This document shows, piece after piece, positions 43,575 through 48,854 of a DNA stretch of 64,000 bases. The translations under genes were made by a program, and so were the position numbers. The DNA lies in NCBI RefSeq assembly GCF_011682235.2, contig NZ_CP076718.1, positions 4,061,095-4,125,094 of the forward strand, read 5' to 3'. Below the pieces are notes generated by a model, which made no database searches, had not been told where the DNA came from, and saw nothing but the letters and a program-made list of their open reading frames with translations. Numbering within the stretch: the stretch's first letter is position 1; the number at the start of each line of letters is the position of its first letter. The DNA is from Rhodocaloribacter litoris (GTDB taxonomy: Bacteria; Bacteroidota; Rhodothermia; Rhodothermales; ISCAR-4553).

Positions 43575-44651
43575 ATGGCAACGGTGGCGGAAAGCGGAAA
43601 AAAAGTTCGCCAGAATATTCTCCGCGGGGTTTACGAGGACAACCTCCGGACCGTGCGGCGGCTGGGGCCGGAGCCGCGCACCGGTGCGGTTCCCCGGCGC
43701 CGTGCCGCTCCCCGGATGGCCGGCGGGCTGGTATGGCTGCTGGGGCTGGTCGTTCTGGTCGGCGGCCTGTTGTCGATGGGGGGGGACCCGGCGCGTTCCT
43801 CGGAGGCCGGAGCGGGCGAAGGCACCGTGCGGATGACCCTCGGCCTCTCGGCGGTGCCGGAGCAGCCGGCGCGGGCCGGTGCGGTCCCCACGCCGGAGCT
43901 CGTCGCCAACCCCACCGTGGCGCGCCTCTACGGGCTCGAACCCAAAACCATCGTCATCGACCCGGGACACGGCGGGTATGATCCCGGCACCACGGGGCAA
44001 AGCGGCCTGACGGAGAAAGAGATCACGCTCGACGTGGCGCACCGCCTGCGGGCACGGCTGTCCCGGTATCCCGGCTACCGGATTCTCCTGACGCGCGAGT
44101 TCGACGAGAAGAAGACCCTCAGGGAGCGAATCACGTTCGCCAACGAGAACAAGGCCGACCTCTTCATTTCCATTCACGTCAACTGGGTGCCGGACGCCTC
44201 GCTGGTGCCGATCGAGACCTATTACTACGGGCCGGGTTCGGATGCGAAGGCCACCCGGCTGGCCCAGCGGGAGAACCGTAACTCCGGCTACACCCTGGCC
44301 GAGTTCAACGAACTGACCCGGCAACTCGGCCTCGAAATGAAGATCCAGGAGTCGCGGGCGCTGGCGGGGTCGATTCAAAGCGTTTTATATCGTAATATGC
44401 GCCGGATCAACGAGCACGCCAGCGACTGGGGGGCCAAGACGGGCGACTTCATGGTGCTGCTCGGGGTGCAGGCGCCCAGTGTGCTCGTCGAGATCACCAG
44501 CCTCAGCAACCGGGAGGAGGAGGCCAAGCTGGGCACCAGCGCGCACCGGGAAGAGCTGGCGATGTTTCTGGAACAGGGCATCGTGGGTTACCTCCTGCCC
44601 GCTGCCAACGAGAACGAACCAACCGAACATGCCGCCGAAGAAAAAGACTAA
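43575..44651 (+). CDS. N-acetylmuramoyl-L-alanine amidase, membrane-anchored
   Basis: The 358-residue Amidase_3-type zinc hydrolase cleaves the lactyl-amide bond of peptidoglycan. A cytoplasmic basic N-terminus is followed by one membrane helix (MAGGLVWLLGLVVLVGGLL, about residues 48-66). The catalytic domain is from about residue 125: IVIDPGHGGYDPGTTG (His ligand), LTEKEITLDVAHRL (Glu ligand), ILLTREFDEKKTL, DLFISIHVNW (His ligand), FMVLLGVQAPSVLVEITSLSN. It overlaps the downstream MamK-like gene by 23 bases, so the two are translated from one mRNA. Confidence 0.92.
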   Translation: MATVAESGKKVRQNILRGVYEDNLRTVRRLGPEPRTGAVPRRRAAPRMAGGLVWLLGLVVLVGGLLSMGGDPARSSEAGAGEGTVRMTLGLSAVPEQPARAGAVPTPELVANPTVARLYGLEPKTIVIDPGHGGYDPGTTGQSGLTEKEITLDVAHRLRARLSRYPGYRILLTREFDEKKTLRERITFANENKADLFISIHVNWVPDASLVPIETYYYGPGSDAKATRLAQRENRNSGYTLAEFNELTRQLGLEMKIQESRALAGSIQSVLYRNMRRINEHASDWGAKTGDFMVLLGVQAPSVLVEITSLSNREEEAKLGTSAHREELAMFLEQGIVGYLLPAANENEPTEHAAEEKD

Positions 44652-45663
44652 GGAAGCTACCGAGATTCTGTACGTGGGCGTCGATCTGGGGACTTCACGG
44701 AGTGCCGTCTCCGCCAGCAACGAAAAACGCCAGTGGGTGGAGAGCTACGTGGGCTGGCCCCGGGACTTCGTCTCGCGCAAGCTGCTGGGCAAACCGGTTC
44801 TGTTCGGTGAGGAGGCCCTCAAGAACCGCATGGCGCTCACGCTCGTGCGCCCGCTCGAATACGGGGTGATCCGGGACGGCACGGCCCGCGAGGAAGAAGC
44901 CATCCGCGAACTGATTCACCACCTGATGGGACTTGCCGAGGCCGGCGAGGACAAGGCCATCTATGCCGCCGTCGGGGTGCCGGCCGAAGCCCTCAAGGTC
45001 AACAAACTCGCCATCCGGGACGCCGTCCGGGAGTTCGCGGACTCGCTGATGGTCGTCTCCGAGCCGTTCGCCGTGGCCTACGGCCTGGGGGCGCTCAACA
45101 ACGCCATGATCATCGACATCGGCGCGGGCACGGTCGACTTCTGCGTGATGCACGGCACGATGCCCGGCGAAGAGGACCAGCGCACCCTCACCACGGCCGG
45201 CGACTACATCGACCGGCAGCTCTACGACCGCCTCTCCGAGAAGTATCCGAACGCGAAGTTCAGCCTGCCCTACGTCCGGAAGCTGAAGGAAGAGCATGGT
45301 TTCGTGGGCGAGACCAAGGGCAAGGTTACCGTCAAGGTGCCGGTCGAGGGCAAGTTCGTCGAATACGAGGTGACGGAGGAGGTGCGGCAGGCGTGTGAGC
45401 GTATCCTGCCTCCCATCGTGGAGACGACCATCGACCTGATCAGCCGCTATGAGCCGGAGTTCCAGGAGCAGGTCCGGCGAAACATTTACCTGGCCGGCGG
45501 CGGCAGCCAGATCAAGGGCATCGCGACGGCCCTGGAAGAGGCCCTGCGCGAGTACGGTTCCTTCAAGGTGAGCACCGTCGAGGATCCCCTCTTCGCCGGC
45601 GCCGACGGGGCCCTGGCGCTGGCCCGCGACATGCCGGAAGAGTACTGGGAGGACATGAGCTGA
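44629..45663 (+). CDS. MamK-like bacterial actin
   Basis: The 344-residue actin-fold protein has phosphate-1 motif YVGVDLGTSRSAV, SYVGWPRDFVSRKLLGKPVLFGEEAL, VGVPAEAL, MVVSEPFAVAYGLGALNNAMIIDIGAGTVDFCVMHGTMPGEEDQ (phosphate 2) and IYLAGGGSQIKGI (adenosine). It ends with LPEEYW. These blocks resemble MamK, the magnetosome filament actin (VGYPKD..G.KLLGRP, GTVPGPEDQ.TL), more than MreB or FtsA. No other mam genes are in the window, so a non-magnetosome filament role is likelier. It is coupled to a peptidoglycan amidase gene. Confidence 0.85.
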   Translation: MPPKKKTKEATEILYVGVDLGTSRSAVSASNEKRQWVESYVGWPRDFVSRKLLGKPVLFGEEALKNRMALTLVRPLEYGVIRDGTAREEEAIRELIHHLMGLAEAGEDKAIYAAVGVPAEALKVNKLAIRDAVREFADSLMVVSEPFAVAYGLGALNNAMIIDIGAGTVDFCVMHGTMPGEEDQRTLTTAGDYIDRQLYDRLSEKYPNAKFSLPYVRKLKEEHGFVGETKGKVTVKVPVEGKFVEYEVTEEVRQACERILPPIVETTIDLISRYEPEFQEQVRRNIYLAGGGSQIKGIATALEEALREYGSFKVSTVEDPLFAGADGALALARDMPEEYWEDMS

Positions 45664-45781: not shown

Positions 45782-47145
45782 TAGTGTACCTTTCTTTCTG
45801 TAAAAGTAGTTGTCGTCGTCGAGCTGTGGACAAGTGGGCAGCATGTCTGTCCACCGCTTGAACAGACGAGCGGCCATGATTTATCCTTTCTCTTGCCTTG
45901 TTCCATCTAAGAAAGGAGGACATCATGACCGCTCATCCGATGCAAGATACGACGCTCGACCGGCTCTTTGAACTACTCAGCCAAGAGGGCCTTGATGCCC
46001 TCGGACGGGCCTTCGTGCTGTTGTTGAACCAAGCCATGAAGCTCGAACGCCAACACTATCTCGGCCTTGAACCCTGCGAGCGTAACCCAGATCGGCGCCA
46101 CGACTGGGCCAACGGCTACAAAGACAAGACCCTCAAGACCCGCCTGGGCGAACTCACCTTCGAGGTTCCGCAGGTGCGTCAGGGCGCGTTCTACCCGAGT
46201 GCCTTGGAAAAAGGCCTCCGTTCCGAAAGGGCGCTCAAGCTGGCCCTGGCCGAGATGTATGTCCAGGGCGTCTCGACGCGCAAGGTGGCCCAGATCACCG
46301 AGCACCTCTGCGGTTTCTCGGTCAGTTCAAGCCAGGTCAGCCGGGCCAGTGTCTCGATGAGTTGCTCGACGAGTGGCGGGAGCGCCCGCTGGGTTCGTAT
46401 CCGTACCTCTTTCTCGACGCCCGGTATGAGAAAGTCCGTCAGGGTGGGCTGGTGCGTGATTGTGCCGTGCTCGTGGCCAGCGGTGTCGCGCTCGATGGCA
46501 AGCGGGAGGTCTTGGGCGTGTCGGTCTCCTTGAGTGAGGCCGAGGTGCACTGGCGCGCGTTTTTGCAGTCGTTGCAGCGGCGGGGCCTGCATGGGGTGCG
46601 TCTCGTCATCTCGGATGATCACGCGGGGTTGAAGGCGGCACGGCGGGCGGTCTTTGCGGAGGTGCCCTGGCAGCGGTGCCAGTTTCATCTTCAGCAGAAC
46701 GCCCAGGCCTATGTGCCGCGTCAGGCGATGAAGCCGGATTTGGGGCGCGATCTGCACCGGGTCTTCAACGCCGCTGACCTGGCTGAAGCGCACGACCGGC
46801 TGGCAGCTCTGGTCGAGAAGTATCACGAGAGCGCGCCGAAGCTCTCGCAGTGGATCGAGACTGACCTGATCGAAGGCCTGACGGTGTTTCGCTTTCCAGA
46901 GTCTCATCGGCGTCGTCTTCGCACGACGAACATGCAGGAGCGATTGAACCGGGAGATCCGTCGTCGCACGCGTGTGGTGAGTCAGTTTCCCAACGAGGCC
47001 TCGTGTCTTCGCCTGGTCACGGCGGTGGTCATGGAGATCTCGGAGGAGTGGCAGGCCGGCCGGGTGTACCTGAACATGGACTTGCTCTTGACAGAAGACG
47101 GGAATGGGTAGATCCAACTTTTACAGAAAGGATGTTGCGCTATCT
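45782..47145 (+). mobile_element. IS256-family insertion sequence, transposase frameshifted
   Basis: The ends share CTTTCTGTAAAAGT (45794-45807) and its exact complement (47117-47130), with weaker pairing outward to TAGTGTACC / TAGCGCAAC. CCTTAGAAG occurs at 45773-45781 and 47146-47154 and is the likely 9-bp target duplication; the exact outer ends are uncertain by two or three bases. The element separates the MamK-like gene from the sialic-acid cluster. Its transposase has a -1 phase break, so the copy is probably dead. Confidence 0.85.
45925..47111 (+). pseudogene. IS256-family (Mutator-type) transposase, frameshifted
   Basis: The first part starts at ATG 45925 after a strong GAAAGGAGGA site and reads to SSSQVSRAS. 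The second phase then continues with CLDELLDEWRERPLGSYPYLFLDARYEKVR to the stop at 47111. The break lies near 46345-46352 and is equivalent to loss of one base. DDE residues remain: Asp in LDARYEKVR, Asp in ISDDHAGLKAA and Glu in MQERLNREIRRR. There is no slippery heptamer at the break and IS256 elements do not normally frameshift, so I treat it as a mutation. Confidence 0.85.
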
Positions 47146-47163
47146 CCTTAGAAGCAGGAATAT

Positions 47164-47179
47164 CCCGCCTTTAGGCGGG
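47164..47179. terminator. Small hairpin downstream of the epimerase gene
   Basis: CCCGCC-TTTA-GGCGGG forms a 6-bp stem about 50 bases beyond the stop of the epimerase remnant (minus strand) and just outside the IS256 end. No T-run is present; weak terminator or REP-like palindrome. Confidence 0.3.
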
Positions 47180-47228
47180 GGGCAAGGAGACGAAGGCCGT
47201 TGCTCGGACGGCAGGGATCTTATTGTTT

Positions 47229-47639
47229 CTACATGAATGCCCGAGAAGTGACGTCTCCCTGATCGAGTTCTTCCAGGAGCTTCCAACAGTACCATTGCAT
47301 GCGAGGAATGTGGTAGGGGCCTTTCCAGTAATTACCTTTCAGGGGTACGGACAAGCGTCCATCCCGATGCAGGTAACCGTACCACTCGCCATAGAGAGCA
47401 TCCGGGAAATGGGTGTGCGTCCAGTTGTGGACCTGGGCGTGCCACCGGGCATAGCGTTCCTCGCCCGTTAGGACATAGGCGAGCAGGGTGGCGATGATGG
47501 CCTCGCACTGAGGCCACCAAAACTTCATATCATGCCAGTACTCTTGGATAGGCAGGTTTTTGACGTCGCGAAAATAAAAGAGGCCGCCGTACTGGTTGTC
47601 CCACCCTCGCTGCCACATCCAGTCGAGCATCGTAGTGCC
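47229..47639 (-). pseudogene. N-acylglucosamine 2-epimerase, C-terminal fragment
   Basis: This is the 3' third of an AGE-family gene, cut from its 5' part by the IS630 element. The peptide (LDWMWQRGWDNQYGGLFYFRD ... EYWHDMKFWWPQCEAIIATLLAY ... HTHFPDALYGEWYGYLHRDG) contains the EYWHDMKFWWPQ and GEWYGYL signatures of the alpha/alpha-barrel epimerase, including His residues used in catalysis. Removing the IS and one TA joins it in frame to the 5' part (DADLIA-LGTTM-LDWMW). Confidence 0.9.
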
Positions 47640-47641
47640 TA

Positions 47642-48854
47642 GTGCTGTGTCAAGTTATAATTGACGGGTATAGCCGCTTCAACTTCACCCGCGCATCCGC
47701 CGTCGTGAACTGCCAGTCTACACCCCGCTGCTTTGCGTTGCGCGCCTCGTACCAGGCGGCGATCTCGCCCTCTAACTGCGATGCATTGCCGATGCGGCGA
47801 CAGAGACCCTGACGAACCAGCACCGAAAGCTCGATCTCGGCCATGTTCAACCACGAACCATGCACCGGCGTCGAGACTATCTCCAACTTGCGCACGATGC
47901 GCCGGGCGCGCTCGGCGTCGAAGACCTCGTAGAGCGCCGAGGCGGTGTGCGCGGAGAGGTTGTCCTGAACCAGCGTGATCGTCTCGGCGTCTGGATAGAG
48001 GTCTTCGACGAGGTGGGCCACCACACGAGCCCAGGTCAAACGGTCCTGACGCTCCTTGACGAGCACCTTCCGGAAGCCGCCCAGGGGCTCGCAGAGCATA
48101 TAGAGCGTGCGGGTCCCTTCGCGTTTGTACTCGTAATCCACGTGCCGCACCCCGTCGGCACGCGTGAAGGGCTGTCGCACCTCGCTGATGAGTTGCTTGC
48201 GCGCTTCGTCGAGGCACACAACCGGTCGGAGCGGGTCGTAGGGCCGGGCGTAGACATCGAGCACTTGCTCCATCTGGCAGACGAAGGCGGCATCGGCCTG
48301 AGGAATTACCCACGACTTAACGCGCCAGGGCTTGAGTTCGTTTTTTTAAGCAACTGCCGCACGCTCTCATGCGAGATCGATTCGACGTAACCGAGTTCGA
48401 TCATACGGTCAGCCAGAAGGCGGAGCGACCACCGGGCAAAGCCTTCCGGCGGCTCTGAACAGCGCAGGGCCACCAGATGAGCCTCGACCTGCCCGTCGAA
48501 GATCTTCTCTTTAACCGGTTCGCGTTTTTTGCCGTAGAGAGCCACCTCGAAGCCTTCTTCGACGAAGCGCCGACGTAAGCGCTCGACGGTTCGGACACTG
48601 ACGTTGTAGCTTTCGGCGATGCGTTCATCGGTCCAGGCCGGTGCGCCCTGGCTCTGGTCTGCTTTGAGCAGCATGAAGGCTCGTTTGACCGGCGGGACAC
48701 CTTTTGAACGCCGCTCAATGAGGTCATCGAGGTGCTGGCGTTCACTGTCATTGAGCGTGACGCAGTATTTTTTGGCCATGGCAGGAAGTGGCTTCAGGAG
48801 TGAGCGACTGTTGAAGCTACTATCCTACCCGGCAGATGATCCTTGACGCAGCAC
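47642..48854 (-). mobile_element. IS630-family insertion sequence inside the epimerase gene
   Basis: This 1213-bp element is flanked by TA duplications (47640-47641 and 48855-48856), as IS630/Tc1 elements make. Its ends are imperfect inverted repeats: GTGCTGTGTCAAG at the left and GTGCTGCGTCAAG (complement) at the right, with further similarity through CGGGTA and GCTTCAAC. Precise removal restores an open epimerase frame. The transposase is encoded in two phases joined by an A7 run. Confidence 0.95.
47650..48779 (-). CDS. IS630-family transposase, probably made by -1 frameshifting
   Basis: The first phase (48779 to 48306, 157 residues) carries the N-terminal helix-turn-helix region (TDERIAESYNVSVRTVERLRRRFVEEG). 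At QLLKK an A7 run (complement of T7 at 48341-48347) allows a -1 slip into the second phase, which continues NELKPWRVKSWVIP and QMEQVLDVYARPYDPLRPVVCLDEARKQL to 47650. Acidic catalytic residues appear in order: CLDEARKQL, LVQDNLSAHT, NMAEIELS. Two-phase transposases with slippery A-runs are known in this family, so it may be functional rather than broken. Confidence 0.85.

Follow-up and report, generated by a model that had tools for sequence, protein, structure and literature searches.

The locus described here lies within a stretch of 64,000 nucleotides from Rhodocaloribacter litoris, which was analysed as a whole and is referred to as the window. It consists of two forward-strand genes, the first encoding a membrane-anchored cell-wall amidase of the Amidase_3 type and the second an actin of the MamK family, with the actin start codon located inside the 3' end of the amidase gene and the overlap being read in different frames (table 1). 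This arrangement, already seen in the initial annotation of the DNA, suggests that translation of the two genes is coupled; of the accompanying statement that both proteins are made together, the overlap itself stands, and joint translation is what this overlap alone would imply. Upstream of the pair, the window contains thyA, dfrA and a methyltransferase gene, the latter on the opposite strand, with thyA and dfrA adjacent to each other and the pair located beyond the methyltransferase gene. In many Rhodothermales (L009, L010, L014, L016–L019, L023 and L031), the amidase–actin pair is found between thyA and dfrA. Directly 3' of the pair (positions 45898–48779), there are transposase genes, i.e. 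one of the Mutator family that is split over two frames and then, on the opposite strand, a DDE_3/HTH pair.

Table 1. Features of the amidase–actin locus, with positions counted from the first nucleotide of the window.
Feature	Position	Strand	Remarks
Amidase_3 gene	43575..44651	+	358 aa; ATG 43575, stop 44649-44651
MamK-family actin gene	44629..45663	+	344 aa; ATG 44629, stop end 45663
Overlap of amidase and actin genes	44629..44651	+	23 nt, frames differ
Proposed actin-docking motif RQNILRGVYEDNLR, amidase codons 12-25	43608..43649	+	cytosolic tail (predicted)
Predicted amidase TM helix, residues 48-67	43716..43775	+	AF2 secondary structure and hydrophobic sequence
Amidase_3 catalytic domain, residues 126-336	43950..44582	+	Pfam match, conserved residues

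The amidase clearly belongs to its family, with a score of 137 bits against the Pfam model Amidase_3 (PF01520; cut-off 27) and a catalytic domain that resembles AmiA, AmiB and AmiC, E. coli AmiA being the best Foldseek match. Residues H132, E147, H201 and E306, which we take to be the zinc ligands and the catalytic glutamate of the Amidase_3 family, are invariant in an alignment of 20 relatives. In the AF2 model, a helix comprising residues 4–30 is followed by a disordered linker, a transmembrane (TM) helix, which bears out the membrane anchor noted at the outset, a second disordered linker and the catalytic domain. The protein would be oriented N-in, with the tail in the cytosol and the catalytic domain in the periplasm.

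In all these amidases, the region from residue 1 to about residue 110, i.e. tail, TM segment and linker, is variable except for residues 12–25. This 14-residue stretch ahead of the TM helix follows the pattern R-x-x-I-L-x-x-V-Y-x-D-N-L-R, in which L16 and N23 are the sole positions that are invariant among the 20 aligned amidases. A profile of 14 columns, which was built from 28 amidase tails only, exceeds 10 bits at 57 of the 62 distinct amidase loci, always with the invariant Asn. Among the five low-scoring loci, L024 shows the motif all the same, three (L008, L030 and L119) start mid-gene at a contig end and the fifth (L221) appears to do so as well; all 57 scorable amidases with an intact N-terminus carry the motif. 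Among the 522 open frames of the window, which was itself part of the training set of the profile, the amidase motif ranks at the top with a score of 37.9, the next best frame reaching 9.4. At the level of the entire genome, where a degenerate DNA pattern was used for counting, there is a single match, located in the amidase gene, and none for a reversed control; the second amidase of the same genome does not have the motif. In Roseithermus, the amidase even carries two copies in tandem. The motif is part of the predicted N-terminal helix, which precedes the TM segment and has a pLDDT of about 57–79, i.e. only moderate confidence. By eye, we would consider it reminiscent of WH2; ten motif peptides gave no match to the WH2 family (PF02205) at E values up to 10, in a search whose filters drop most weak matches of short peptides. 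The initial annotation missed the tail motif, which is the strongest evidence for a physical connection between actin and amidase.

The actin obtains 423 bits against the NCBIfam MamK model NF040964 (cut-off 400), which assigns it to the MamK family at the subfamily level; several other actins of its clade fall slightly short of this cut-off (371–400). Its score against the BeeR model (227 bits, cut-off 530) as well as those against two MreB models (83 and 66 bits, cut-offs 293 and 366, respectively) stay far below the thresholds. Its best relatives in the PDB are MamK (5ljw, E 8e-84), BeeR (3e-48) and MreB (about 1e-13), and comparison of its AF2 model (pLDDT 89.7) with the subunit of the MamK filament gave TM scores of 0.92/0.97 at 42% sequence identity. 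The MamK-type motif blocks by which the protein had originally been recognized—here VGWPRD, KLLGKP, GTMPGEEDQRTL and PEEYW—are all present. In a quick tree rooted with MreB as the outgroup, with SH-aLRT support only and the order of the deep clades left unsettled, the amidase-linked actins of several phyla form one clade (57 rows, 55 of them with an amidase; SH-aLRT 99). This clade includes the actin of the window and is separate from both groups of magnetosomal MamK. The Planctomycetota actins represent a clade of their own (98), which is sister (94) to the magnetosomal MamKs of Nitrospirota and Desulfobacterota (100), proteobacterial MamK including that of AMB-1 makes up a further group (85) and BeeR is found outside. 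Thus, the phylogeny that had been proposed as a check places the actin outside of MreB as well as BeeR; its identification as MamK-like is borne out by scores and tree, but it belongs to a distinct clade of the MamK family rather than to magnetosomal MamK. That the protein is just a duplicate of MreB was rejected on the basis of the tree, the MreB scores and the presence of a separate true MreB in the same genome (466 bits). MamK-family actins are encoded in 113 of 294 Planctomycetota genomes, with several having two or more. At one locus (L231), in a genome sampled from the class to which a gammaproteobacterial metagenome-assembled genome belongs, the actin is of the BeeR type and groups with BeeR (SH-aLRT 99).

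A scan of genome contigs yielded 48 relatives of the actin, with the gene for this amidase located directly upstream in 26 of 26 cases at an identity of at least 56% and in none of 22 at an identity of at most 51%. Within the Bacteroidota, the actin occurs in 12 of 296 genomes, all of which are from the order of the window. Among 114 genomes of this order, the actin (E<1e-60) and the amidase type (E<1e-50) are present in exactly the same 34, and they are adjacent at every locus whose DNA was examined; in the remaining genomes of the order, generic amidases align from residue ~65–125 onward, i.e. without the tail. The pair is also found in 17 of 246 Nitrospirota genomes as well as in Desulfobacterota, Aminicenantes and Gammaproteobacteria, many of these genomes from outside the order being metagenome assemblies with phylum labels that follow either the deposited record or the grouping of the search tool. 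With the gene pair present in each of the 34 genomes of the order that have the actin, and also in other phyla, its conservation is far above chance, which settles the initial question of whether such conservation exists. Two actins of the amidase-linked clade have no amidase next door: at L226, an open reading frame with the motif is located upstream, followed by a hydrophobic segment in another frame and no amidase domain, and at L228, neither motif nor amidase is found beside the actin. The missing amidase domain at L226 (L248) may reflect either a frameshift in the assembly or a genuine loss.

With an actin inside the NCBIfam MamK subfamily, one could think that this protein is left over from a magnetosome cluster since lost and has no present link to the amidase. 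However, as the initial annotation had stated for the neighbourhood, no mam homologues were found in the 64-kb window, nor were any present at the loci of 26 amidase-type relatives, with probes that do detect mam genes in magnetosome clusters. Moreover, the amidase-linked clade stands apart from both magnetosomal groups and the actin has been retained together with the amidase in 34 of 34 cases. Tree, scores and missing mam genes together led us to reject this explanation, which is highly improbable.

In one genome (G212), from a family whose members commonly have the pair, the amidase gene is in the syntenic position (ahead of dfrA, a glycosyltransferase gene and a gene of outer-membrane type) and an actin of this kind is absent. 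The tail of this amidase lacks the motif but has a TM helix, a single case (n=1) in which motif and actin are jointly absent.

The motif is not confined to amidases. The Planctomycetota actins have no amidase; here, the product of the preceding gene is a coiled-coil protein that in some cases also has a GGDEF domain. In 15 out of about 20 loci of this kind, the frame directly 5' of the actin is the one ranked first by the amidase-derived profile, with the motif near the C-terminus of the protein. Planctomycetota loci fetched later (8 to 31 frames each, L260 and L264 repeating genomes of the first set) gave the same ranking in 22 of 29 cases, with one or two being expected by chance. Shuffling of the individual proteins resulted in p values of 0.001–0.003 for most partners and of 0.01–0.1 for some. 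In magnetosome clusters of Nitrospirota and Desulfobacterota, the protein encoded 5' of mamK ends with the motif, for instance with DEYKKALLRGVLQENIMLREET (L233) or DDRRRGVLRAIMESNKLLWEQAG (L175) directly before the stop; these clusters were called with MamM above its cut-off (L235) and matches to MamA, MamB, MamE and MamQ below theirs. In Gammaproteobacteria, the motif is present at the end of proteins of 121–136 amino acids with hydrophobic N-terminal stretches, whose genes are likewise located directly 5' of a MamK-family actin. According to BLASTP, these classes of partners are not homologous to one another; the invariant Asn in the consensus of the non-amidase partners is partly due to construction, since they were collected with the profile.

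Some further features of these partners were observed. The motif-ending proteins encoded 5' of mamK (L175, L176, L233–L242 and L044) have about 115–205 amino acids and no NCBIfam or Pfam name. The Planctomycetota partners (L046, L037 and L045, located upstream of the actin, as well as L128, L142, L144, L145 and L150) contain a GGDEF or coiled-coil part and share a C-terminal module in which xGxxSxYRxVQGL precedes the motif. Several Planctomycetota genomes encode additional proteins with this module away from the actin, which are possible extra clients.

Other MamK-family loci do not have a motif-bearing neighbour (L152, L156–L160, L163–L165 and L216–L220). These include gammaproteobacterial magnetosomal mamK genes, with no motif found upstream (L216–L220), and coiled-coil-linked actins, with none found either (L158–L160, L163 and L165); the same is true for tandem MamK-family pairs in Desulfobacterota. 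Thus, the motif is widespread but not universal. At L179 (together with L158–L160 and L165) and at L183, the gene preceding the actin encodes an SMC/Rad50-like coiled-coil protein rather than a motif protein. At five loci in Desulfobacterota (L173, L174, L177, L178 and L184), two MamK-family actins are arranged in tandem or nearly so without recognized mam genes, with a gene for a small TM protein between the two at L173/L174.

What could be the function of such a motif? A role at the nucleotide level is unlikely, because the motif is located ~1 kb from the actin start in the amidases and 0.1–0.4 kb from it in the other partners. As a MamK-family actin is its constant companion, docking on this actin is the simplest reading, and from the sequence patterns we regard such docking as quite likely. 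In this view, the amidase would be anchored in the inner membrane, the catalytic domain facing the periplasm, and the short helical motif would protrude into the cytosol and directly bind the co-encoded actin; the actin would polymerize, and the filament would concentrate, position or gate peptidoglycan cleavage from the cytosolic face. With an enzyme that crosses the membrane once and has its docking helix at the cytosolic end, a filament could indeed gather, place or gate cleavage. This full scenario, i.e. docking combined with an effect of the actin on wall cleavage that we infer, seems to us reasonably probable, with less assurance than docking as such. The filament that positions wall cleavage, as suggested in the initial annotation, is therefore plausible, with the positioning itself still a matter of inference.

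Alternatively, the tail may act on the actin, either as its membrane anchor or as a sequestering or depolymerizing factor, with the filament not steering cleavage at all. There is a precedent in the C-terminal peptide of arcadin-2, which depolymerizes crenactin (PMC5173319), and in other phyla the motif is found on proteins without any wall enzyme, some of which have TM segments or coiled coils; in addition, motif and TM segment are kept at L226 even though the amidase domain is missing. However, all examined amidases of the clade have kept the invariant metal-binding and catalytic residues, for which a pure anchor would have no need, and we consider this alternative unlikely. Short amphipathic helices are common, and the motif might also serve in dimerization or membrane targeting or bind some other common protein, with the two genes being merely co-expressed. 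Its recurrence beside MamK-family actins in unrelated proteins, and at either terminus, as well as its absence where the actin is absent (G212) speak against this possibility, to which we give still less weight. Docking on the actin thus remains our preferred reading. Candidate contact residues of the actin, for instance M335, D334, F278, P238 and H175, are at positions where motif-paired actins differ from unpaired ones, in a comparison confounded by phylogeny.

On a larger scale, the motif may well be a docking code that holds for the MamK family in general and is used by unrelated proteins, with the magnetosome being one of several cargoes, a proposal we hold a shade less firmly than that of actin-directed wall cleavage. 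Under this docking code, the clients would probably comprise small TM proteins, proteins of the GGDEF-like and coiled-coil types, the wall amidase and, in deep-branching magnetotactic bacteria, the product of the gene adjacent to mamK. The motif protein whose gene precedes mamK in the clusters of Nitrospirota and Desulfobacterota is a candidate for a MamJ-like adaptor.

How does this compare with known systems? MamK itself (5ljv, 5ljw and 5jyg) is in the same curated family, and in the Nitrospirota and Desulfobacterota clusters it also follows a motif-bearing gene; here, however, there are no magnetosome genes nearby, the actin belongs to a separate clade and the partner is a cell-wall amidase. 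MamK relatives outside of magnetotactic bacteria are not new, since two have already been described. BeeR is a MamK-related actin of non-magnetotactic Verrucomicrobiota (PDB 8r2n; PMC11929497), from which the window actin differs by the absence of a long disordered N-terminal extension, in addition to scoring below the BeeR cut-off. Bbp, the ‘big bacteria protein’, is a MamK-like actin of mostly non-magnetotactic bacteria; going by its description, the reported neighbours are a Kelch protein and a hypothetical protein rather than an amidase (PMC10580974).

With regard to the mode of interaction, ParR and arcadin-2 use short peptides to bind a hydrophobic groove of the actin encoded next to them (PMC5173319). 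The peptides of the ParR–ParM and arcadin-2–crenactin pairs are of similar size, and their C-terminal position matches that in the non-amidase partners; binding was measured there and no wall enzyme is involved, whereas here peptide, position and co-occurrence derive from sequence. In FtsEX–EnvC–AmiB (8c0j for AmiB with EnvC), a cytosolic ATPase acts on a periplasmic amidase, as proposed here, but in our case a single protein would span the membrane, no go-between of the EnvC type is apparent and the part of the ATPase would fall to an actin. In the elongasome, MreB reaches wall enzymes via the cytosolic part of the membrane protein RodZ, again as proposed here, but the actin described above fails the MreB cut-offs and is paired with a hydrolase. 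The pair would represent an actin with adaptor peptides whose cargo is unusual.

What is new is the tail motif that the amidase shares with unrelated partners of MamK-family actins, which provides a testable sequence rule across the family. In the open-access literature, we found no link between MamK and an amidase, the sole co-mention being unrelated, and the passages on MamK adaptors examined in open-access papers do not mention such a motif. According to one report, MamJ seems to be absent outside of magnetospirilla (PMC10653835), and with MamJ apparently missing there, the adaptor of MamK in other magnetotactic bacteria is largely unknown. MamK has so far been studied almost solely as the track of magnetosomes. 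If the motif docks, it would provide a candidate for the MamK adaptor of deep-branching magnetotactic lineages and a role for the widespread non-magnetic relatives of MamK, and a cytosolic actin filament would reach a cell-wall hydrolase via a single membrane-spanning protein.
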